This document shows, one piece after another, positions 1 to 11,527 of a stretch of 42,126 bases of DNA. Made by a program: the position numbers and the translations under genes. Each line of letters begins with the position of its first letter. Position 1 is the stretch's first letter. The DNA comes from Bacteroidales bacterium (lineage in GTDB: Bacteria; Bacteroidota; Bacteroidia; Bacteroidales; UBA7960), in the NCBI GenBank assembly GCA_007134525.1, contig SLKR01000021.1:1-42126 (forward strand). The letters are read 5' to 3'. Below the pieces are notes generated by a model that was given only the letters and a program-made list of their open reading frames with translations, ran no database searches and was not told the DNA's origin.

Positions 1-359
1 TAACCGAGGTTGGGAGTTATCTTGATATAAGCGAGAACAAAATATACGGGGTTGCCACCTTTTATGACAATTTCCGTTTTTCGCCGCTGGGGAAATTCCA
101 TTTCAGGCTGTGTCACGGTACTGCCTGCCATGTGGCAGGTGCATCCACGATTTTGAAAGAGCTTGAAAAACTTCTGAAGATAAATGAGGGCCAAACCGGC
201 GAGGATGGTTACTTCAGCCTCGAGGTTGTGAGCTGCATGGGAGCCTGCGGGCTGGCACCCATGATTCAGGTTAATGACAAATTCTATACAAATCTTACCC
301 TGGATTCATTAAAGGAGATAGTTGTTTCCATAAGGAAAATAGATAAAACCAGTTTATGA
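1..359 (+). CDS. hydC: NuoE/HydC-like [2Fe-2S] subunit of [FeFe] hydrogenase (5' truncated by window)
   Basis: The reading frame is open from base 3 and the 5' end lies outside the window, so only about the last 118 residues are seen. The fragment has the thioredoxin-like [2Fe-2S] fold pattern of NuoE, HndA and HydC: a Cys pair in LCHGTACHVAG (fragment residues 37 and 42) and a second pair in SCMGACG (78 and 82), giving all four cluster ligands. In trimeric hydrogenases this small subunit carries electrons next to the flavoprotein. The stop codon overlaps the start of the NuoF-like gene in an ATGA junction (356-359), so the two are translationally coupled. The first in-frame ATG at 132 lies inside the conserved domain and is not the real start. 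Confidence 0.9.
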   Translation, partial: TEVGSYLDISENKIYGVATFYDNFRFSPLGKFHFRLCHGTACHVAGASTILKELEKLLKINEGQTGEDGYFSLEVVSCMGACGLAPMIQVNDKFYTNLTLDSLKEIVVSIRKIDKTSL

Positions 360-2332
360 TACCGGAAAAAGGTTCAGAAAGAAAGGAGTTCCTGATAAAC
401 AAGGTATTGCTTGACAGGGAAAGGGATAACAATTCCTCTCTAAAAAAACCATTGTCTTATATTTCCGGAGAGAGGGTAAACAGGCCCCTGATATACGTGG
501 GGATGGCAACCTGCGGGCAGATAGCAGGAGCGGGTGATACTGCGGCTGCTATTAAGGAATACCTTAATGACCACAGCATTGATGCTGACCTGATAGAAGG
601 TGGGTGCAACGGGTTGTGTAGTGAAGAACCTATTGTTGATGTTCAGCTCCCCGGCAAAACAAGGCTTTCCTTTCCGCGGATCACCAGCTCCAGGGTGCAG
701 AGCCTCCTGGATGAAATACTCAACGATAACCTGCCGGAAATCGAGCCACTTGGACAGTATGATAATCCAGTTCTGAGAAAGTGGGAAGGCATCCCGATGA
801 TGGACGCCCACCCCTTTTTCCTGAATCAGGAAAGATTGCTGCTGGAACATTGTGGGTTGGTTGATCCGGTATCTGCGGAAAACTATATTGCAAGAGGTGG
901 TTATTGGGCTTTTTCGGATATCATATCAAGACTCACCCCGGCACAGGTATGTGAAGAGGTAACAAAGAGCGGCCTGAGGGGGCGGGGAGGGGGAGGTTAC
1001 CCCACCGGTACCAAGTGGTCCGCTGCACTAAGCACAGTGAGTGAACAGAAATTCCTTGTTTGTAATGCCGTTGAGAGCGATCCGGGCAGTTATATGAACC
1101 GGGCAATAATTGAGAGCAACCCCCACCGTTTGATAGAAGCCGTTTTAATTGCCTCTTATGCAATAGGTGCAACCAGGGCTTACATATTCATTAGAGAGGA
1201 GTTCGGTCTTGCCGTAGAGAGGCTGGAGAGCTCAATTGAGCAGGCACGTGATTACGGCCTTATCGGACACAACATACTCGATTCGGGTGTAAATATTAAC
1301 ATAGTTGTTAAAAGGGGGGCCAGGGCTTTTGTATGTGGCGAGGAAACCGCACTTAACAACAGTATAGAGGGTAAAAGGGCGATGCCTTCATCAAAGCCTC
1401 CCTATCCGGCTGAAAAGGGCTTATGGAACAAGCCGACAATAGTAAACAATGTTGAAACACTTTTCAATATACCACTTATACTCAGCAGGGGGGCAAAATG
1501 GTTTTCAGGTACCGGAAGTGGTAACAGCAAGGGTACCAAACTTTTTACACTTTCAGGAAACATAAAGCACTATGGCACTGCTGAAGTACCCATGGGTATA
1601 AAGTTCAGAGACGTAGTCCTGAAAGTTGCCGGAGGGTTAAAAAAGAACAGTGGCGGACCGGAATCTGAAGGAACAGTCGACTTTAAAGCGGTTGTGCTTG
1701 GGATAAACAGCGGCAGTTATATTACTGCCGACCACCTTGATACCCGGGTTAGCTTCGGGGAGCTTGAGAAGATCGGAGCTGCCCTGGGAAGCGGTGCATT
1801 CGTGGTTCTTGACCGCGATGTATGTATGGTTGATCTTGCAAAGTATTTCACCGGCTTCTTTAAACGTGAGAGCTGCGGTAAATGCATCCCATGCAGGGAA
1901 GGTACTGCCCGGATGCTGGAGATAATGGAAAATGTTACCCGTCGTCCGGCTGAAAACAATTCATTCCAGACCCTTGAGCGCTTCAAGGGGGTAATGCAGC
2001 TGAGGAACCTTTCAGGGGTTATAAGTGAGACCTCACTCTGTTCGCTTGGAAAGTCATCACCCAATGCAATACTGAATACCCTGAAGTATTTCAAGGATGA
2101 AATCGATGCCCACATATTTGAAAGAAGGTGCGATGCCGGTATTTGTACTGACCTCAGGGTTTACTCCATAGATGTGGATGCCTGCACAGGATGTACTGCA
2201 TGCTTTAAAAAGTGCCCCGTAGATGCGATAATAGGCTCTCCAAGGTATCCGCACTTCATTGTTCAGGAAAAATGTATAGCATGCGGCAGTTGTTACGATG
2301 CCTGCAAGTTCAATGCAGTTATCATTAAATAG
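356..2332 (+). CDS. hydB: NuoF/HydB-like NAD(P)H:ferredoxin flavoprotein subunit of [FeFe] hydrogenase
   Basis: This 658-residue protein has the HydB/HndC layout. An N-terminal thioredoxin-like [2Fe-2S] domain spans about residues 45-120 with C53, C84 and C88. The NuoF core follows, with the FMN/NADH glycine-rich loop GLRGRGGGGYPTG near 207-219 and the acidic FVCGEETAL segment near 325-333. An SLBB segment and a [4Fe-4S] site (C507, C510, C513 and C562) come next. Two ferredoxin-type [4Fe-4S] motifs close the protein (CTGCTACFKKC at 610-620 and CIACGSCYDAC at 640-650). In the family this subunit holds FMN and exchanges electrons between NAD(P)H, ferredoxin and the H-cluster subunit. It overlaps the upstream gene by 4 bases and lies 14 bases before hydA. 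The N-terminal domain shows three rather than four cluster cysteines. Confidence 0.93.
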   Translation: MIPEKGSERKEFLINKVLLDRERDNNSSLKKPLSYISGERVNRPLIYVGMATCGQIAGAGDTAAAIKEYLNDHSIDADLIEGGCNGLCSEEPIVDVQLPGKTRLSFPRITSSRVQSLLDEILNDNLPEIEPLGQYDNPVLRKWEGIPMMDAHPFFLNQERLLLEHCGLVDPVSAENYIARGGYWAFSDIISRLTPAQVCEEVTKSGLRGRGGGGYPTGTKWSAALSTVSEQKFLVCNAVESDPGSYMNRAIIESNPHRLIEAVLIASYAIGATRAYIFIREEFGLAVERLESSIEQARDYGLIGHNILDSGVNINIVVKRGARAFVCGEETALNNSIEGKRAMPSSKPPYPAEKGLWNKPTIVNNVETLFNIPLILSRGAKWFSGTGSGNSKGTKLFTLSGNIKHYGTAEVPMGIKFRDVVLKVAGGLKKNSGGPESEGTVDFKAVVLGINSGSYITADHLDTRVSFGELEKIGAALGSGAFVVLDRDVCMVDLAKYFTGFFKRESCGKCIPCREGTARMLEIMENVTRRPAENNSFQTLERFKGVMQLRNLSGVISETSLCSLGKSSPNAILNTLKYFKDEIDAHIFERRCDAGICTDLRVYSIDVDACTGCTACFKKCPVDAIIGSPRYPHFIVQEKCIACGSCYDACKFNAVIIK

Positions 2333-2346
2333 ATTATTGCGGTAAT

Positions 2347-4074
2347 ATGGATTTTAAGATAGAGGTAAATAACAGGATGATAGAGGCCGGCGAAGGAGAA
2401 ATGCTCCTTGGCGTATTGCAAAGAAATGGTTTCAGGATACCCACTCTATGCCATATGAACCGTTTTTCGCCAACCGGTGCATGCCGTCTCTGCGTTGTAG
2501 AGGTTGAGGGTAAGAGTGACCTTATCACATCTTGTTCCTGCCCCGTTAAAGAGGGCATGAGGGTAAAAACAAACTCCCGAAGGGTTATACATGCGCGTAA
2601 GTCGCTTGTAGAGCTGCTTCTTTCAAACCATCCCGACGACTGTCTCTATTGCCAGAGAAATGGTGACTGTGAACTGCAGTGGCTTGCAGGTGAATTGAAC
2701 GTAAGGGAGCGACGCTATTTTGGTGAAAAGAACAAGTTCTTTCCGGACTATTCAAGCTCAAGCGTAGCGCGAGACCCGGCAAAATGTGTTCTGTGCTCCC
2801 GTTGTGTGCGGATCTGTGAGGAAGTGCAGCTTGTTACAGCCATTGATTTCATTTCAAGAGGCAATAAAACCAAGGTAAACAGTGCTTTTGGTCAGGGACT
2901 TAACGTTTCCAGCTGTATACATTGCGGACAATGCATTCAGGTATGCCCGACAGCTGCCCTTCTTGATATATCGCACCTTGAAAAGGTTCAGGCCGCACTG
3001 GCATCGGACAAAAAAAGAGTATTGTTCTTTATAAGTCCTTCAGTAATCGCATCGGTTGCCGAGAGGCTTGATATGCGGCCAAAGGATAATATTTTAAACC
3101 AGTTGGTATCTGCACTCAAGAGATGTGGTGCAGACAAGGTGTTTGACCTTGGGTTTGCCAATGATATAAATATCATGGAAGATGCCGGCAGGCTGGTGCA
3201 AATTCTAAAAGGAGGCATTAAAGGTGAATTTCCGCTGATCTCTTCCTGTTGTCCTTCATGGGTAAGGTATGCACAGGAGTTCAGGCCCCGTACACTTAAT
3301 CTGCTTTCACTGTCGAAATCACCCCAGCAGGTTATGGGTACAGTGCTGAAGACCACGTATGCAGAACAAACCGGAACTGATACCGAGGATATATATACAG
3401 TTGCTGTAATGCCTTGTGTGGCAAAAAAATATGAAGCATCACTTGAGAAGAATACCCATAAGGGAATTTCGGAAGTAGACTCAGTGCTTACTGTAAGGGA
3501 GCTGCTCAGGATGCTGCGCAGTTACGGACTTAATCTGTCGCAGATGGATGAAGAGGAAATTGACACGCCATATGATGTTTCATCCTCTGCCGCGTGGAAG
3601 CTGGGTTACTCCGGAGGAAAGGCCGAGGCTGTAGCTAGGGAGGTATTTAATATGACCACTACTGGCAAAAAGGAAGGCTTCAGGTTCAATCTCCCCAAGA
3701 ACCAGTCGGTAAGGAGGGAGACTAAACTAAGTATAGGTAAATCCCAGATTGGTTTTGCCTGGGTGAGCAGTATCGCTGAGGCTGAAAAATACCTCCAGGA
3801 GCTCGAGGAAGAAGGGCGTGATGATATTCACTACATTGAGATAATGGCATGCCTTGGTGGTTGTGCCGGGGGAGGAGGTCAGCCTATCAGCCGGGGTTTT
3901 GAAAATGCCAGGGCCAGGAAGCGGTTTTGTGTTGAAATGGAGAAGCTGAGCCCGGTCAAATTACCCTCAGAAAATCCTGTCCTTAAACCGGTGATGGGTG
4001 ATTCGGGATTTGACCCTGGTAACAGTGAGGCCAGAGAATGGCTGATCAACAGGTTTATTAAAAAGCAAGGATAA
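2347..4074 (+). CDS. hydA: [FeFe] hydrogenase catalytic subunit, divergent active-site loop
   Basis: This 575-residue protein has the domain order of clostridial CpI-type enzymes. An N-terminal [2Fe-2S] domain has C35, C46, C49 and C63. A His/Cys [4Fe-4S] site has H95, C99, C102 and C108. Two ferredoxin [4Fe-4S] motifs lie at 147-157 and 190-200. The H domain has SSCCPSW (C302 as ligand, C301 as the usual proton-transfer Cys), VMPCVAKK (C357) and MACLGGCAGGGGQP (C502, C506). All four H-cluster ligands are present. The third active-site loop, normally FGxxGGVMEAALR, reads LGYSGGKAEAVAR (419-431), so the Met that contacts the cluster (CpI Met497 by manual alignment) becomes Ala. The C-terminal tail also lacks the usual HxLLHT-like end. 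It is cotranscribed with hydB and its stop shares one base with the next start (TAATG). Catalysis of H2 turnover is likely but may be altered. Confidence 0.9.
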   Translation: MDFKIEVNNRMIEAGEGEMLLGVLQRNGFRIPTLCHMNRFSPTGACRLCVVEVEGKSDLITSCSCPVKEGMRVKTNSRRVIHARKSLVELLLSNHPDDCLYCQRNGDCELQWLAGELNVRERRYFGEKNKFFPDYSSSSVARDPAKCVLCSRCVRICEEVQLVTAIDFISRGNKTKVNSAFGQGLNVSSCIHCGQCIQVCPTAALLDISHLEKVQAALASDKKRVLFFISPSVIASVAERLDMRPKDNILNQLVSALKRCGADKVFDLGFANDINIMEDAGRLVQILKGGIKGEFPLISSCCPSWVRYAQEFRPRTLNLLSLSKSPQQVMGTVLKTTYAEQTGTDTEDIYTVAVMPCVAKKYEASLEKNTHKGISEVDSVLTVRELLRMLRSYGLNLSQMDEEEIDTPYDVSSSAAWKLGYSGGKAEAVAREVFNMTTTGKKEGFRFNLPKNQSVRRETKLSIGKSQIGFAWVSSIAEAEKYLQELEEEGRDDIHYIEIMACLGGCAGGGGQPISRGFENARARKRFCVEMEKLSPVKLPSENPVLKPVMGDSGFDPGNSEAREWLINRFIKKQG

Positions 4075-6110
4075 TGTCCGCAGGCGAAAGAGAAATAATA
4101 TACACGGTAAAAGACAGGTGCAGGGTTTGCTATACCTGTGTAAGGGAGTGCCCTGCAAAGGCCATCAAGATAATGAACGGCCAGGCAGAGATAATGACTG
4201 AGAGGTGTATTGCATGCGGCAACTGCATAAGGGTATGCAGCCGTGACGCAAAAATGTTCGTTTTCTCGATAGACAGGGTGAAAGATCTTCTTAACAGCCG
4301 CTACAAGGTTGCCGCCATTGTTGCACCGAGTATTTCGGGAGAGTTTACCGATATTAAGGATTTCAGGCATTTTGTCGGGATGATAAAGGCTCTTGGCTTT
4401 GACTATGTCAATGAAGTTGCATTCGGAGCGGAACTGGTTGCCAGCAAATACAAGGAGATGCTTGAATCCAGGCCAAGCCGGCCTCTGATTTCGACTTCGT
4501 GTCCGGCAATTGTAAGTTATGTAGAAAAGCATCACCCCCAGATAATAGATTCGCTTATGCCGGTGGTATCACCAATGATAGCTACTGCCAAGGTAATAAG
4601 GGAGAGGTATGGTGCCGACACCCGAATAGTTTTCATAGGCCCCTGTATAGCTAAAAAACATGAAGCTTCAAAGGAACAGTTTGACGGCCTGATTGATGAG
4701 GTAATCTCTTTTGTGGAGCTGCGGAGAATGTTTGAAGAAAAGAAGATAAGTGAAGACAGGGTAGAACCACAGGAGTTCGACCCTCCTGTAGCAGGTAAAG
4801 GAGCTATTTTCCCGATCAGTGGTGGTATGCTTCAGACAGTTGATCTTGAGGAGGACTTTGTTAAAGGTGAAATCATTGTGGCTGAAGGCCGGCGGGATAT
4901 AATCGAGGTATTGAGGGAGTTCGAAGAGGGTTATCTTGAGGCTAAAATGTTTGATCTGCTTTGTTGCAATGGATGCATCAATGGCCCGGGAATGAGCAAT
5001 AACAAGCAATTCTTCTTTAAAAGGAAGAATATATCTGATTTTGCTAAAAGGAGATACGACCTGATCGACATGGAGCAGTGGCAAAAGGATCTCGACCAAT
5101 TTCTGAAGCTTGATCTTAGCCGTGAGTTTATGGCTGATGACCAGCGGTTTCCAGGCACTTCGAGAACTGATGAGGTTCGTGAGGTGCTCAGGAAGTTTGG
5201 CAAAAAGGAGCCTGAAGACGAGCTTAACTGCGGTGCATGCGGTTATGATACCTGTTACGAACACGCCGTTGCCATAATACAGGGAATAGCTGAATCAGAA
5301 ATGTGCCTGCCCTATACTATTGAGAAGCTGCATGAATATATAGAGGAACTCGATGTTTCGAATAAAAAGCTGGAATCTACCCAGGCCGCACTGAAGCAGA
5401 GCGAGAAACTCGCTTCGATGGGTCAGCTTGCTGCAGGTATTGCGCATGAGGTCAATAACCCACTCGGGGTGGTGATTATGTACAGCCACATACTGCTGGA
5501 TGATATGGATCCCTCATCTCCGTTTTACCGCGATCTGAAGTTGATAGTTCAACAGGCAGACCGTTGCAAGAAGATTGTTGGCGGACTGCTTAATTTCGCA
5601 AGGAAGAGCAAGGTGAAGATCGACGAAGTCAATGTAAAGAGACTGATAAACAACGGTCTTAAAACTTTATTGATTCCAAGGAGTGTTGATCTTGAAGTGA
5701 GGATAAATAACCAGAACCCCCTGATTGAGTGCGACCATGACCAGATAGTTCAGGTATTCTCCAATCTATTCAAGAATGCGATTGACGCAATGCCCGGAGG
5801 TGGTAAGCTTTCTATTCTAGTTGATGATGACAGCCATGGGGATATGGTAAATTTCAGGGTAAGGGATACCGGAACAGGAATATCAAAGGATATCATGGAG
5901 AAAATGTTCGAGCCCTTTTTTACCACCAAGGAAACAGGGCAGGGTACAGGTCTTGGTTTGCCCATAATTTACGGAATAATCAAGATGCACCGAGGGACCA
6001 TAAAGGTTGACTCTAATGATGATCCGGCCAAAGGACCCACGGGTACGACATTCTATGTGTCTTTGCCCCGCAGGTCGGTAGATGAGAAAAATAACAACAA
6101 AACATCCTGA
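4074..6110 (+). CDS. H-cluster-domain sensory histidine kinase (ferredoxin + hydrogenase-like domain + HisKA/HATPase)
   Basis: This 678-residue fusion begins with a two-cluster ferredoxin domain (Cys at 16-26 and 45-55). A hydrogenase large-subunit-like domain follows (about 75-345). A four-Cys iron-sulfur motif of the PF04060 type comes next (C386, C389, C394, C411), then a coiled-coil linker and a histidine kinase with H458 in AAGIAHEVNNPL, N564, DTGTGI, FEPFFTTK and GTGLGL. H-cluster ligand cysteines are kept (C143 in STSCPA, C191 in GPC, C297 and C301 in CCNGC). The proton-transfer Cys is Ser142, and the GGVMEA loop reads GGMLQTV. This resembles the kinase-linked putative sensory [FeFe] proteins (group C type). 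I infer a cytoplasmic H2 or redox sensor; no membrane segment or PAS domain is seen. It is coupled to hydA by a one-base overlap and followed by two receiver proteins. Confidence 0.88.
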   Translation: MSAGEREIIYTVKDRCRVCYTCVRECPAKAIKIMNGQAEIMTERCIACGNCIRVCSRDAKMFVFSIDRVKDLLNSRYKVAAIVAPSISGEFTDIKDFRHFVGMIKALGFDYVNEVAFGAELVASKYKEMLESRPSRPLISTSCPAIVSYVEKHHPQIIDSLMPVVSPMIATAKVIRERYGADTRIVFIGPCIAKKHEASKEQFDGLIDEVISFVELRRMFEEKKISEDRVEPQEFDPPVAGKGAIFPISGGMLQTVDLEEDFVKGEIIVAEGRRDIIEVLREFEEGYLEAKMFDLLCCNGCINGPGMSNNKQFFFKRKNISDFAKRRYDLIDMEQWQKDLDQFLKLDLSREFMADDQRFPGTSRTDEVREVLRKFGKKEPEDELNCGACGYDTCYEHAVAIIQGIAESEMCLPYTIEKLHEYIEELDVSNKKLESTQAALKQSEKLASMGQLAAGIAHEVNNPLGVVIMYSHILLDDMDPSSPFYRDLKLIVQQADRCKKIVGGLLNFARKSKVKIDEVNVKRLINNGLKTLLIPRSVDLEVRINNQNPLIECDHDQIVQVFSNLFKNAIDAMPGGGKLSILVDDDSHGDMVNFRVRDTGTGISKDIMEKMFEPFFTTKETGQGTGLGLPIIYGIIKMHRGTIKVDSNDDPAKGPTGTTFYVSLPRRSVDEKNNNKTS

Positions 6111-6112
6111 TT

Positions 6113-6511
6113 ATGTTAAAAAAGGAAAAAAAGATCATTCTTATTGTTGATGATGATGCAGACTTTCTTTTCCAGCTCAAGGTAGGAGTCAGGGATATGG
6201 GGTTTGAAACTGTAACAGCTGGTACCCAAAAGGAGGCCGAAGATATTATAGACCGCATAAAGCCTGATCTTGCAATTCTTGATCTTATGATGGAGAAGCA
6301 GGATACCGGATTCATACTATGCCACAAGATCAAGGACAGATATCCGGGTGTGCCCATTATCATTGTTTCTGCGGTTACTTCCGAAACCGGTATGCTTTTC
6401 GATGTCAATACCGAGGAAGACCGCGACTGGATCAAGGCGGAGTTGTTTCTTGACAAAGGGATAAGAATGGACCAGCTGCACAAGGAAATAAATAAACTAC
6501 TGAAGATATAA
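6113..6511 (+). CDS. Stand-alone response regulator receiver (CheY-like)
   Basis: This 132-residue protein is a single receiver domain: the acidic pocket DDD near residues 13-15, the predicted phospho-acceptor D57 in LAILDLMM, a Ser/Thr switch region (IIVSAVTS) and K115 in FLDKG. It has no DNA-binding or enzymatic output domain. It starts 2 bases after the histidine kinase stop and its own stop meets the start of the next gene (TAATG), so the phosphorelay genes are likely co-translated. It probably receives phosphate from the upstream kinase and either passes it on or acts by protein contact; the target is unknown. Confidence 0.9.
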   Translation: MLKKEKKIILIVDDDADFLFQLKVGVRDMGFETVTAGTQKEAEDIIDRIKPDLAILDLMMEKQDTGFILCHKIKDRYPGVPIIIVSAVTSETGMLFDVNTEEDRDWIKAELFLDKGIRMDQLHKEINKLLKI

Positions 6512-7635
6512 TGGAAAAGCTTAACCTTCTGGTAGTTGACGATGAACCGGGTATCAGGAGCGGAGTAAACCGTATTCTGGAGAACTATTCCATCAGCTTC
6601 CCGTTTATGGATGAGGACTTTGGCTTTAACGTGGAGCTGGCGGAGACTGGTGAGGAGGCACTAGAGATTTTAAAGCAGAAGAAGATGGATATAGTGCTCC
6701 TGGATAATAAACTTCCCGGTATTCAGGGCATAGAAGTGCTGGAGTACATAAATGAGCATCGCATTGATGTTGTAGTGGTAATGATCACCTCCTATGCTTC
6801 CCTCGAACTAGCCGTCAAGGCTACTCGCCAGGGGGCTTATGACTTCGTGCCAAAACCATTTACTCCTAAGGAACTTCGTGCATCAATAGAGACAATTACC
6901 AAGCAATTGTTTCTCAGGCGTATGACTCAGCGCCTCAATGTCGAGGGGCGGCAGGTGAGGTTTCAATTTCTGTCGGTACTCTCCCATGAGCTAAAGTCGC
7001 CCCTGAATGCCATCGAAGGTTATCTGCGAATGCTTCAGGATAAAAAGTTCGGTGAAAGCCTGGATGAATACATGGAGATCATAGACAGGTCAATGCATCG
7101 CATCCAGGGAATGCGCAACCTTATTATGGACATGCTGGACTTTACCCGAATAGAAAGTGGCAAAAAGAAGCGTAATCCGCGGGATATCAAAATTTGCGAC
7201 ATTACCCAGCAGTGTATTGATTCATTTCAGCCACTGTCAATTCAAAAAGACGTGGATGTATATCTTAACTGCAGTGAGAAAATAATAATGAATGCCGATC
7301 CCCAGGAAATGGAAATAATACTGAACAATCTTATTTCCAATGCTATTAAATACAACAAGCAGGGAGGAAGGGTAGACGTGAATCTGAGGAAGGATAAGTC
7401 AAGAGTGATACTCAGTGTTGAGGATACAGGCATTGGAATGAAAAAAGAGGATATAGGAAGGCTCTTTGAGGATTTTGTGCGCATAAAGAGTGAACATACC
7501 AAAGATATCAGCGGCAGCGGGCTTGGCCTTTCTATTGTAAAAAAACTGCTGGAGAATTATGAAGCGGAGGTAAAAGTTGACAGTGCACCAGGTGAAGGCA
7601 GCAGTTTTACTATAGAATTTAAGAACAAGGAATAA
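6511..7635 (+). CDS. Receiver-histidine kinase hybrid
   Basis: This 374-residue protein has an N-terminal receiver domain (DDE near residues 10-12, phospho-acceptor D65 in VLLDNKLPG, K115 in VPKPF). A HisKA dimerisation helix follows with H159 in LSVLSHELKSPLNAI. A HATPase domain completes it with the N-box NNLISNAIKYN, DTGIGM and GSGLGLSIVKKL. No membrane segment, sensor domain or DNA-binding domain is present. The receiver-first order suggests the receiver controls the kinase, so a signal could pass from the H-cluster kinase to the small receiver and on to this protein. Its final target is not in the window. It lies 19 bases upstream of rex, whose product is a separate redox regulator. Confidence 0.9.
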   Translation: MEKLNLLVVDDEPGIRSGVNRILENYSISFPFMDEDFGFNVELAETGEEALEILKQKKMDIVLLDNKLPGIQGIEVLEYINEHRIDVVVVMITSYASLELAVKATRQGAYDFVPKPFTPKELRASIETITKQLFLRRMTQRLNVEGRQVRFQFLSVLSHELKSPLNAIEGYLRMLQDKKFGESLDEYMEIIDRSMHRIQGMRNLIMDMLDFTRIESGKKKRNPRDIKICDITQQCIDSFQPLSIQKDVDVYLNCSEKIIMNADPQEMEIILNNLISNAIKYNKQGGRVDVNLRKDKSRVILSVEDTGIGMKKEDIGRLFEDFVRIKSEHTKDISGSGLGLSIVKKLLENYEAEVKVDSAPGEGSSFTIEFKNKE

Positions 7636-7654: not shown

Positions 7655-8284
7655 ATGATGAAAAAAGTCAATCAGGAACTACCCGGAAAAACCATAGAGC
7701 GCTTGAGCCAGTACAGGCGCATTCTCTTCAATATAATGAATGAAGGGAAGGCCAACATATACTCCCACGAGCTGGCAAGTATGATGAACCTCACCTCTGT
7801 GCAGGTCAGGCGTGATTTGATGCTTATCGGATATTCAGGCAGTCAGAGCAAAGGATACGTGGTAAAGGATCTTGTTGAGCTGATTGGTAATATCATAGAC
7901 AGCGATCATGGCCAGAAGATAATTATAGTTGGCATGGGAAACCTTGGCAGGGCTATCACAAGTTATTTTTCGGGTAAAAGAGAAAAGCTTTCAATTGTCG
8001 CTGCTTTTGACAATGACGAAAATAAAACCGACAGGATTATGTCAGGTATTCCATGCTATCATGTAAACAAATTAAATGAGGTTGTTCAAAAAGAAGGGGT
8101 CAGCATAGCCATCCTGACAGTTTCGCCTGAAGCGGCGCATACGGCAAATAAGCTGCTTCTGGAAGCAGGAGTAAAGGCGATAATGAATTACACCTCAATA
8201 CCGCTTACAGTTCCTGAAGGCGTTCATCTGGAGGAGTATGACATGGTAACATCACTTGAAAAACTGGCATATCTGGTAAAATGA
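7655..8284 (+). CDS. rex: Redox-sensing transcriptional repressor Rex
   Basis: This 209-residue protein has the Rex layout: an N-terminal winged-helix DNA-binding domain (about 1-75, with SVQVRRDLMLIGY) and a Rossmann NAD(H)-binding domain with the fingerprint GMGNLGRA (93-100) and a C-terminal swapped helix. Rex proteins bind operators when NADH/NAD+ is low and release DNA when NADH rises, typically controlling fermentation and hydrogenase genes. Two ATG codons stand in tandem (7655 and 7658) and either may be used. The stop overlaps the next start (ATGA, 8281-8284). An 18-bp palindrome upstream of hydG has the spacing of a Rex operator, which suggests local control. Confidence 0.92.
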   Translation: MMKKVNQELPGKTIERLSQYRRILFNIMNEGKANIYSHELASMMNLTSVQVRRDLMLIGYSGSQSKGYVVKDLVELIGNIIDSDHGQKIIIVGMGNLGRAITSYFSGKREKLSIVAAFDNDENKTDRIMSGIPCYHVNKLNEVVQKEGVSIAILTVSPEAAHTANKLLLEAGVKAIMNYTSIPLTVPEGVHLEEYDMVTSLEKLAYLVK

Positions 8285-10099: not shown

Positions 10100-11527
10100 A
10101 TGATTTACTACCCTGAAAAATACCGTATTGAAGACAGGAGGATGAAGCCATTCATTGATCCTGACGAGATATGGGGTTATCTGAAGAATGTAAAGGCAGA
10201 CAAGACAAGGGTCAGGGAGATTATTAAGGCTTCACTCGACAAAAAACGTCTTTCTCTTGAAGAGACCGCAGTGCTTCTGAATGCCAGCGACCACGATTTA
10301 ATTGAGGAGATAAAAGAAGGAGCCAGAGCCCTTAAGGAGAAGGTATACGGTGAACGTATCGTGCTATTTGCTCCCCTTTATGTAGGTGACCTCTGTACCA
10401 ACAACTGCCAGTATTGTGGTTTTCGCTCCTCGAACAAGGGGGTGCAAAGAATGACGCTGAGCGAAAACGAACTAATTGCTGAAACCACTGCCCTAATTGA
10501 CCAGGGTCACAAAAGGCTCATACTGGTTTACGGGGAACATCCGAAATATTCACCGGAATTTATTGCTGAAACGGTCAGGATCGTATACGGGGTCAGGCAC
10601 AAAAATGGCGAGATCAGAAGGGTTAATATTAATGCTGCCCCATTTGACATACCGGGTTTCCGTACAATTAAGGATGCTGGAATTGGTACTTTCCAGATCT
10701 TCCAGGAGACCTATCACGAACCGACATACATGAATGTTCATCTCGGAGGTGTGAAAAGGAATTTCGAATGGAGGCTCACTGCGCTTGACAGGGCACAGGA
10801 AGCCGGTATAGATGATGTCGGGATAGGTTCCCTTTTCGGACTTTATGACTGGAGGTTTGAGGTAATGGGGCTGGTTCGCCATGTTAACCACTTCGAGGCT
10901 GTATATAATGTCGGCCCACATACGATATCTTTTCCGAGGATACAGAATGCATTGGCCCTGAATATAATGAAAGACCACATGGTCAGGGATGAAGAGTTTG
11001 TTCGGCTTGTTTCAATATTAAGGCTTGCAGTACCGTATACGGGTATGATACTCACAGCGCGTGAGCCTGCACATATACGCGACCAGATATTGCGCTTCGG
11101 GGTTTCGCAGATTGACGGGGGTACAAACCTCGAACTGGGAGGTTATTCCAGGGGCCGGCAGGAAACACAGGACCTTAGCAGGGAACAGTTTCAGATAAAT
11201 GACAGCAGATCGCTGTCTGAAATCATGGACGAATTGATAAGAAACGGTTACATACCTTCTTTCTGTACCGCCTGTTATCGGTTGGGGCGTACGGGTGAAC
11301 ATTTCATGGAGTTTTCGGTGCCCGGATTCATAAAGCGGTACTGTACACCAAATGCTCTGCTTACCCTTGCGGAGTATCTTGAAGACTATGCCTCTGAAGA
11401 TACAAAAAAGGCAGGTTATGACCTCATTGAGGTAAAGATACGCGAACTGAAAAAGGGACAGAAAACTGATAAACTCAGGGAAAAGATTGGAAAAGTCAGA
11501 TCAGGTGAAAGAGATCTCTATTTCTAA
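10100..11527 (+). CDS. hydG: [FeFe] hydrogenase H-cluster maturation radical SAM enzyme HydG
   Basis: This 475-residue protein has the radical-SAM motif CTNNCQYC (C99, C103, C106) and the C-terminal auxiliary-cluster motif CTACYRLGRTGEHFM, with C389, C392 and C415 in the CX2CX22C spacing specific to HydG. HydG cleaves tyrosine to make the CO and cyanide ligands of the H-cluster. It sits alone behind its own promoter and palindrome at 10062-10091 and is followed 17 bases later by two TM1266-type genes. The ATG at 10100 is used here, but an in-frame ATG at 10142, just after an AGGAGG-like stretch, could also serve. HydE and HydF, the other two maturases, are not in the window. Confidence 0.95.
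   Translation: MIYYPEKYRIEDRRMKPFIDPDEIWGYLKNVKADKTRVREIIKASLDKKRLSLEETAVLLNASDHDLIEEIKEGARALKEKVYGERIVLFAPLYVGDLCTNNCQYCGFRSSNKGVQRMTLSENELIAETTALIDQGHKRLILVYGEHPKYSPEFIAETVRIVYGVRHKNGEIRRVNINAAPFDIPGFRTIKDAGIGTFQIFQETYHEPTYMNVHLGGVKRNFEWRLTALDRAQEAGIDDVGIGSLFGLYDWRFEVMGLVRHVNHFEAVYNVGPHTISFPRIQNALALNIMKDHMVRDEEFVRLVSILRLAVPYTGMILTAREPAHIRDQILRFGVSQIDGGTNLELGGYSRGRQETQDLSREQFQINDSRSLSEIMDELIRNGYIPSFCTACYRLGRTGEHFMEFSVPGFIKRYCTPNALLTLAEYLEDYASEDTKKAGYDLIEVKIRELKKGQKTDKLREKIGKVRSGERDLYF

Follow-up and report, generated by a model that had tools for sequence, protein, structure and literature searches.

The 42,126-nucleotide contig SLKR01000021.1 of a Bacteroidales bacterium (assembly GCA_007134525.1), referred to here as the window, contains three consecutive genes for a predicted kinase-linked sensory [FeFe]-hydrogenase (HydS), a stand-alone receiver (RR1), and a receiver-kinase (RRHK). 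The trio is real, is embedded in a hydCBA ([FeFe]-hydrogenase) operon, and forms a cassette that is widely conserved and built on a sensor of a known kind. The end of hydA overlaps hydS by one base, hydS and RR1 are separated by two bases, and RR1 overlaps RRHK by one base. These coordinates and the Pfam domains bear out the three-gene run with gaps or overlaps of at most two bases that was described in an earlier note on this DNA. The genes and domains of that note stand, and its fourth H-cluster ligand, its lack of a second Fe-S module, and its starting point need correction. Position 4074, where the stretch described there begins, lies mid-operon: the 3' part of hydC, hydB, and hydA are upstream, and rex and hydG are downstream. 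The note also omitted the hydCBA operon as such, Rex, and the divergent HydS-PAS with a SpoIIE-type phosphatase that is found in relatives. A RibF-like gene and then an MBL-fold gene sit between rex and hydG, and rex encodes the DNA-binding regulator nearest to the trio. NCBIfam group A models match HydA, but below their cut-offs.

The conservation of the cassette was counted in three sets of loci, referred to by L numbers, from which a first relatives search and 20 regions that guided the analysis were left out. The first set is the best 80 of 551 confirmed loci in the genome collection and includes Bacteroidales, Planctomycetota, Sumerlaeota, Calditrichota, Marinimicrobia, and Caldisericia; the closest named relative among these 80 is the Bacteroidales metagenome-assembled genome CSSed10_347 (L056), at 91% identity over HydS residues 1–440. 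Seven loci cut near the end of hydS were dropped, and the remaining 73 show at least 400 nucleotides beyond it. RR1 directly follows hydS in 70 of the 73 loci, RRHK comes next in 66 of the 69 with a further gene visible, and the gene before hydS is hydA in 68 of 73. The exceptions to RR1 being next are L070, with RR1 before hydS, L072, with only an RRHK-type receiver, and L085, with another open reading frame (ORF) before a cut RR1.

The second set was drawn from four phyla, those of L071 (Planctomycetota), L072 (Sumerlaeota), L109 (Marinimicrobia), and L085 (Calditrichota), and has 40 regions. Of these, 32 contain a HydS kinase with an identity of 38% or more, and 27 are testable; L254–L256 and L271–L275 were left out as remote H-domain proteins (26–37% identity), and L237, L251, L266, L267, and L276 as cut. 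The regions were counted by tblastn and Pfam, since gene picking missed RR1 in L244 and L248 and RRHK in L238. The trio occurs in 22 of the 27, including three regions with RR1 before hydS (L240, L242, L243) and L265, which was counted despite its broken frames. The remainder are two regions with RRHK but without an adjacent RR1, two with a lone receiver, and one with an NtrC-type sigma54 activator. L253 and L072 are one genome, counted in both sets.

The third set covers more distant Bacteroidota (39–42% identity), sampled as 20 of the 25 genomes other than that of the window with matches in this phylum. The order hydS, RR1, RRHK is found in all 20, and both RRHK proteins scanned also carry a PAS domain. 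In five regions (L289, L294, L296, L298, L306), hydCBA is not directly upstream; in four of these a receiver-hydC-hydB-hydA set lies downstream, and the 14 kb fetched for L289 contain no recognised hydrogenase gene. Matches occur in 26 of 395 Bacteroidota genomes, including that of the window (E ≤ 1e-140). At E ≤ 1e-60, a looser threshold that also admits other H-domain proteins, they occur in 33 of 294 Planctomycetota, 3 of 28 Sumerlaeota, 14 of 199 Marinimicrobia, and 6 of 40 Calditrichota genomes. Because the gene order recurs across phyla, the trio is more than a chance arrangement, and the synteny on which the earlier note had staked its proposal is found in all three sets.

The H-cluster ligands of HydS were compared in an alignment of 137 HydS kinases. 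C143, C191, and C301, three of the four cluster cysteines named in the earlier note, hold in this alignment. The fourth, C297, is Cys in 98 sequences (F in 26, A in 7, S in 4, L in 1, T in 1), whereas all 137 have Cys at C298. When 26 HydA sequences are aligned with HydS, the first Cys of their MACxGGC motif falls in the C298 column, HydS being one residue shorter there. Because of this invariance and alignment, C298 is proposed as the fourth ligand, and C297 was rejected. The list of HydS domains in the earlier note also overlooked the PF04060 Fe-S module at residues 384–413 (Table 1).

Table 1. Genes of the hydrogenase operon in the window, with the domains and key residues of the trio
Feature	Protein residues	Window position	Strand	Support
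hydC, 3' part (contig starts inside gene)		3..359	+	blastp 84% to hydC of L005
hydB, NuoF-like subunit		356..2332	+	Complex1_51K and NADH_4Fe-4S
hydA, catalytic-type [FeFe]-hydrogenase subunit, same operon as hydS		2347..4074	+	Fe_hyd_lg_C 6.5e-65
hydS, predicted kinase-linked sensory [FeFe]-hydrogenase, 678 aa		4074..6110	+	Pfam; kept in 137 aligned relatives
HydS Fer4x2	about 10-59			Pfam, two Fer4 motifs
HydS H-domain	78-305			full-length Fe_hyd_lg_C match, 8e-52
H-cluster ligand, directly after Ser142	C143	4500..4502	+	Cys in 137/137
H-cluster ligand	C191	4644..4646	+	Cys in 137/137
Proposed fourth H-cluster ligand	C298	4965..4967	+	Cys in 137/137; HydA alignment
H-cluster ligand	C301	4974..4976	+	Cys in 137/137
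C-terminal Fe-S module, Cx2Cx4Cx16C	384-413	5223..5312	+	PF04060 1e-9
Connector helix	C411 to DHp domain	5307..5444	+	length varies in steps of seven
HydS HisKA	449-511			1.6e-12
HydS phospho-acceptor (HExxN)	H458	5445..5447	+	H, E, N each 137/137
HydS HATPase_c	554-667			1e-25
RR1, stand-alone receiver, 132 aa		6113..6511	+	PF00072 1.8e-15
RR1 acceptor	D57	6281-6283	+	D57 and K115 in 80/80
RRHK, receiver-kinase (REC-HisKA-HATPase), 374 aa		6511..7635	+	Pfam
RRHK receiver residue	D65	6703-6705	+	80/80
RRHK kinase residue	H159	6985-6987	+	80/80
rex, NADH/NAD+-type repressor		7655..8284	+	NCBIfam Rex above cut-off
hydG, H-cluster maturase		10100..11527	+	TIGR03955 498 bits vs cut-off 312

The domains and residues of HydS support its assignment as a kinase-linked sensory (group C-like) hydrogenase. 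It has the H-domain cysteines, the Fer4x2 and C-terminal motifs, no C299-type Cys, and a fused kinase, as expected for group C. A PAS domain, typical of M2f, is not among the Pfam matches of the window HydS at E ≤ 0.01; the kinase-linked C1 label is not known to require one. The AlphaFold2 monomer of HydS has a mean predicted local distance difference test (pLDDT) score of 83.6, and the best 50 of 962 matches in a Protein Data Bank fold search are all [FeFe]-hydrogenases, except rank 16, which is the hydrogenase subunit of H2-dependent CO2 reductase. The sensor with two dedicated receivers that the earlier note had proposed agrees with these domains and residues and with the synteny; its idea that Ser142, at the proton-transfer place, fits a non-turnover sensor is not supported. 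The Ser142 column is varied among the 137 kinases (D 56, S 31, P 19, T 15, A 14, N 2) and contains no Cys. A study of HydS from T. maritima reports that this protein has Ala at this place and still oxidises and makes H2, at a low rate (PMC10055695). Its A131C variant, which restores the Cys, is less active, and Asp is the one replacement tolerated at this position in prototypical enzymes (PMC10055695). We therefore dropped the non-turnover argument; low turnover is a fair expectation for HydS, and no turnover is not.

The residues expected to carry phosphate, H458 of HydS, D57 of RR1, and D65 and H159 of RRHK, are intact in 80 of 80 trios. HydS keeps the Asn of its HExxN motif in all 137 sequences, and the fourth place of the corresponding motif in RRHK is Ser or Ala in 77 of 80, a replacement that predicts a kinase poor in phosphatase activity. 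RR1 is kept without RRHK in L060, L061, and L063, which have rex in its place, and RRHK is kept without an adjacent RR1 in L238 and L239. In two Sumerlaeota (L252, L253), only an RRHK-type receiver follows hydS, and no hydABC genes were recognised within the 13–15 kb fetched. Because gene losses leave either RR1 or RRHK alone, HydS would have two direct partners. That it talks to both is the simplest reading, and the losses suggest a transfer path that is branched rather than linear. In L253 (6554-9261), hydS stands between a 101-aa HisKA-only ORF on its upstream side and a receiver-only gene downstream, an arrangement resembling an RRHK that has come apart and no longer has its ATPase.

The C-terminal module (C386-x2-C389-x4-C394-x16-C411) retains all four cysteines in 137 of 137 HydS. 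The spacing from C411 to H458 is 47 residues in 113 sequences, 40 in 22, 33 in one, and 65 in one, so that 136 of the 137 fall on steps of seven. All 20 sequences of the third set, fetched after the step of seven had been noted, have 40 residues. An a/d register is formed by I416, L419, I423, L426, L433, and L440, at residues 416–440 only. Together, the length steps of seven and this a/d pattern suggest that the connector is a coiled coil that keeps its phase.

Two operon layouts occur, and the trio does not differ between them. In 38 loci of the first set, a divergent gene for a thioredoxin-like ferredoxin stands before hydC, in many loci followed by HydS-PAS and a SpoIIE-type phosphatase. 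Other loci of this set have a single-receiver gene of about 165–200 aa before hydC (16 regions examined). In loci without the HydS-PAS branch, single receivers roughly 165 aa long, each with an insert of some 35 residues, occur before hydC at L041:16912-17412 and L043:12469-12963, both on the minus strand. The genome of the window itself contains a HydS-PAS gene on contig C152 (L005:1249-3102). The genome bin carries two different hydC copies: L005:221-703 and window positions 1-461 share 79.6% DNA identity across 461 bases. Compared with L056, contig C152 reaches 89.6% identity over 1302 bases, and the window 76.2% over 905 bases at its hydC end. The two copies may reflect a second operon or a bin that mixes strains, and it is therefore unproven that the divergent HydS-PAS branch adjoins the window.

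In HydS-PAS, the sister sensor, 18 of 44 proteins lack Cys at the place of C298 (H 8, N 6, D 3, K 1); one more, from the doubtful relative L086, has a gap there, and in L040 none of the four cluster cysteines is left. An H-cluster ligand place that naturally carries His, Asn, or Asp would merit spectroscopic study. Beyond the two H-domain proteins of the window and the one on C152, contigs C100 and C150 of the same genome encode two more, with open frames of 617 and 599 aa. A remote relation of 1201 aa, L254:6299-11362, combines an H-domain with HisKA, HATPase, an Hpt domain, and two receivers; it is followed by a receiver-receiver-nucleotide cyclase gene, making an [FeFe]-type sensor with cyclic-nucleotide output possible.

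No DNA-binding domain was found in the 59 RRHK and 49 RR1 proteins scanned. The RRHK matches are to receiver, HisKA, and HATPase-type families only, with weak cREC_REC matches in 7 of 59, and the receiver family is matched by each of the 49 RR1. Some RR1 have weak extra matches; these, to VpsR (3), OKR_DC_1_N (1), and FleQ (1), presumably reflect receiver-like folds. The claim of the earlier note that neither receiver has an output domain thus holds for DNA-binding domains, but the RRHK receiver is fused to a kinase, and a planctomycete relative, L250, has an NtrC-type sigma54 activator directly after hydS. A transcriptional output is possible for a HydS-type sensor, because L250 pairs HydS with this activator.

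Rex-like boxes were sought with an assumed consensus, allowing two mismatches at most, and expectations were taken from dinucleotide-preserving shuffles. Of the 38 divergent hydC promoters, 25 contain such a box (0.85 expected; for example L120 and L094), as do 7 of 16 regions upstream of receiver-first operons (0.4 expected), with none in the 12 gaps between receiver and hydC. The Fisher value of 4e-13 for these boxes overstates the evidence, because the loci are related. Scans of L005 alone gave one three-mismatch match each, within chance.

Hydrogenases of group C with a linked kinase have been published before, and the kind of sensor is known. In Petrimonas mucosa, the kinase-linked hydrogenase ING2E5A_0849 (group C1 of HydDB) lies near hndABCD (0853–0856) and resembles HydS as a kinase-linked [FeFe] protein of Bacteroidota near a bifurcating-type hydrogenase and a proposed H2 sensor, whereas the available text is silent on receivers (PMC7768429). 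The three locus tags between them may correspond to RR1, RRHK, and, following the pattern of L294, one further receiver. HydS of T. maritima (group C / M2f) shares with the window protein an H-domain with an altered second sphere and without Cys at the C299 place, the C-terminal Fe-S module, and linkage to a hydrogenase operon, but contains a PAS domain and lacks a kinase (PMC10055695). TamHydS (group D / M2e) has Fer4x2, the H-domain, Cx2Cx4Cx16C, and Leu at the M497 place, like the window HydS; it lacks a fused kinase or PAS, and its M353 place is Ser/Thr, compared with Gly in the window (PMC8163306, PMC13104023). The pairing of two [4Fe-4S] motifs at the N-terminus with Cx2Cx4Cx16C at the C-terminus has been described for the sensory type (PMC8163306). 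BfuT of Hydrogenedentota is a sensory [FeFe] subunit encoded with BfuABC, one type of which has a histidine kinase domain; it is labelled C3, and the part of the report available mentions no receivers (PMC11406978). A group C1 gene lies beside a histidine kinase gene in Cloacimonadota (PMC8542988), and a review terms the sensory role putative (PMC8924675). Among the titles and abstract openings of the open-licence PMC papers searched, no description of receivers beside a kinase-linked [FeFe]-hydrogenase was found, which is no proof that none exists. The regulatory [NiFe]-hydrogenase HoxBC with HoxJ/HoxA likewise links H2 sensing by a hydrogenase-type protein to a histidine kinase; unlike HydS, it has an unrelated metal site, a separate kinase, and an NtrC-type DNA-binding response regulator.

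From these sequences, we lean slightly towards a model in which HydS is an H2/redox sensor kinase that feeds both receivers, RRHK is a second kinase, and the operon is controlled by Rex. HydS would read H2, or the linked redox poise of ferredoxin, at an H-cluster on C143, C191, C298, and C301; we infer the occupancy of this cluster and the direction of the H2 effect. The signal would pass through the C-terminal [4Fe-4S] module and the phase-kept helix into the DHp domain, where it would set the kinase/phosphatase balance at H458. HydS would then hand phosphate directly to D57 of RR1 and D65 of the RRHK receiver. RRHK would be a second kinase, gated by its receiver and probably with little phosphatase activity, and would feed either RR1 or an unlinked regulator. 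If the operon is under Rex-type (NADH/NAD+) transcription control, the trio would add an H2/redox input on top of it. The hydG maturase gene within the operon and the kept cluster, kinase, and receiver residues support this model, as do the conservation of the cassette, the connector lengths, the gene losses, the HExxN difference between HydS and RRHK, and the Rex-like boxes in divergent hydC promoters.

Several observations weigh against parts of the model. By lineage, there are about four independent changes of connector length, of which three are multiples of seven, and these are few events; the 65-residue connector of L251 is not a multiple of seven away. The hydrophobic periodicity of the whole connector is weak, with 6% of shuffles reaching the observed power at 3.5 residues. 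Residues 436–462 of the AlphaFold2 monomer have pLDDT below 50, and therefore the monomer is unable to show a coiled coil. The C-terminal cluster of TamHydS (group D) is not reduced by H2 (PMC13104023), which is why a conformational role of the module is favoured over a redox one. Covariation over 80 trios failed to tell the four pairings apart: by mutual information, their DHp x receiver-alpha1 blocks came 26th, 40th, 21st, and 18th of 100, and relatedness dominates (effective number 46). Rex-like palindromes are rare before rex-hydC operons (2 of 22, 0.05 expected) and are also above expectation in other gaps of the same loci (20 of 209, 3.15 expected), and the promoter of the window's own operon lies beyond the contig end.

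It is unlikely that HydS senses redox state and not H2, with the Fer4 and C-terminal clusters following ferredoxin poise and the H-domain serving as a scaffold that lacks a functional H-cluster. The losses in HydS-PAS at the C298 place (18 of 44) and of all four cysteines in L040 mean that H-domains in such settings can degenerate, and H-cluster motifs could hardly be found in the C1 proteins of Hydrogenedentota (PMC11406978); however, kinase-linked HydS keeps all four ligands in 137 of 137 sequences, and hydG lies in the operon. Rather doubtful, too, is a non-transcriptional loop in which phosphorylated RR1 would tune HydABC, or the HydS-PAS/SpoIIE branch, by contact. The position of hydA directly before hydS in 68 of 73 loci, the absence of DNA-binding domains from the RRHK and RR1 proteins scanned, and the seemingly existing Rex-type control speak for such a loop, but linkage is no proof of contact, hydCBA is not directly upstream in 5 of the 20 regions of the third set, with no hydrogenase gene recognised in 14 kb of L289, and L250 uses a sigma54 activator.

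That same activator, directly after hydS, would fit a transcriptional output, in which RR1 or RRHK passes phosphate to an unlinked DNA-binding response regulator of the genome. This has a considerable chance of being correct, if somewhat below even. Receiver matches number 34 in this genome, and several lie in frames of about 450–475 aa, as in NtrC-type proteins (the receivers alone were scanned); nevertheless, no candidate partner was identified, and such a regulator stands beside hydS in only 1 of the 27 testable loci of the second set.

It is a tentative and rather improbable proposal that the cassette couples an H-cluster to a kinase via the steps-of-seven helix, with RR1 acting by contact on the hydrogenase or on its sister sensor/phosphatase branch, and so would provide fast non-transcriptional H2 feedback on Rex-controlled HydABC operons. 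Sensory [FeFe]-hydrogenases have been studied for their metal site rather than for the way in which they pass on a signal. The connector with its steps of seven is a testable conformational route, and the correction to C298 matters for the design of mutants. A kinase-linked HydS with two fixed receivers and kept active-site residues would allow a direct assay of transmission, with H2 in and phosphate out.

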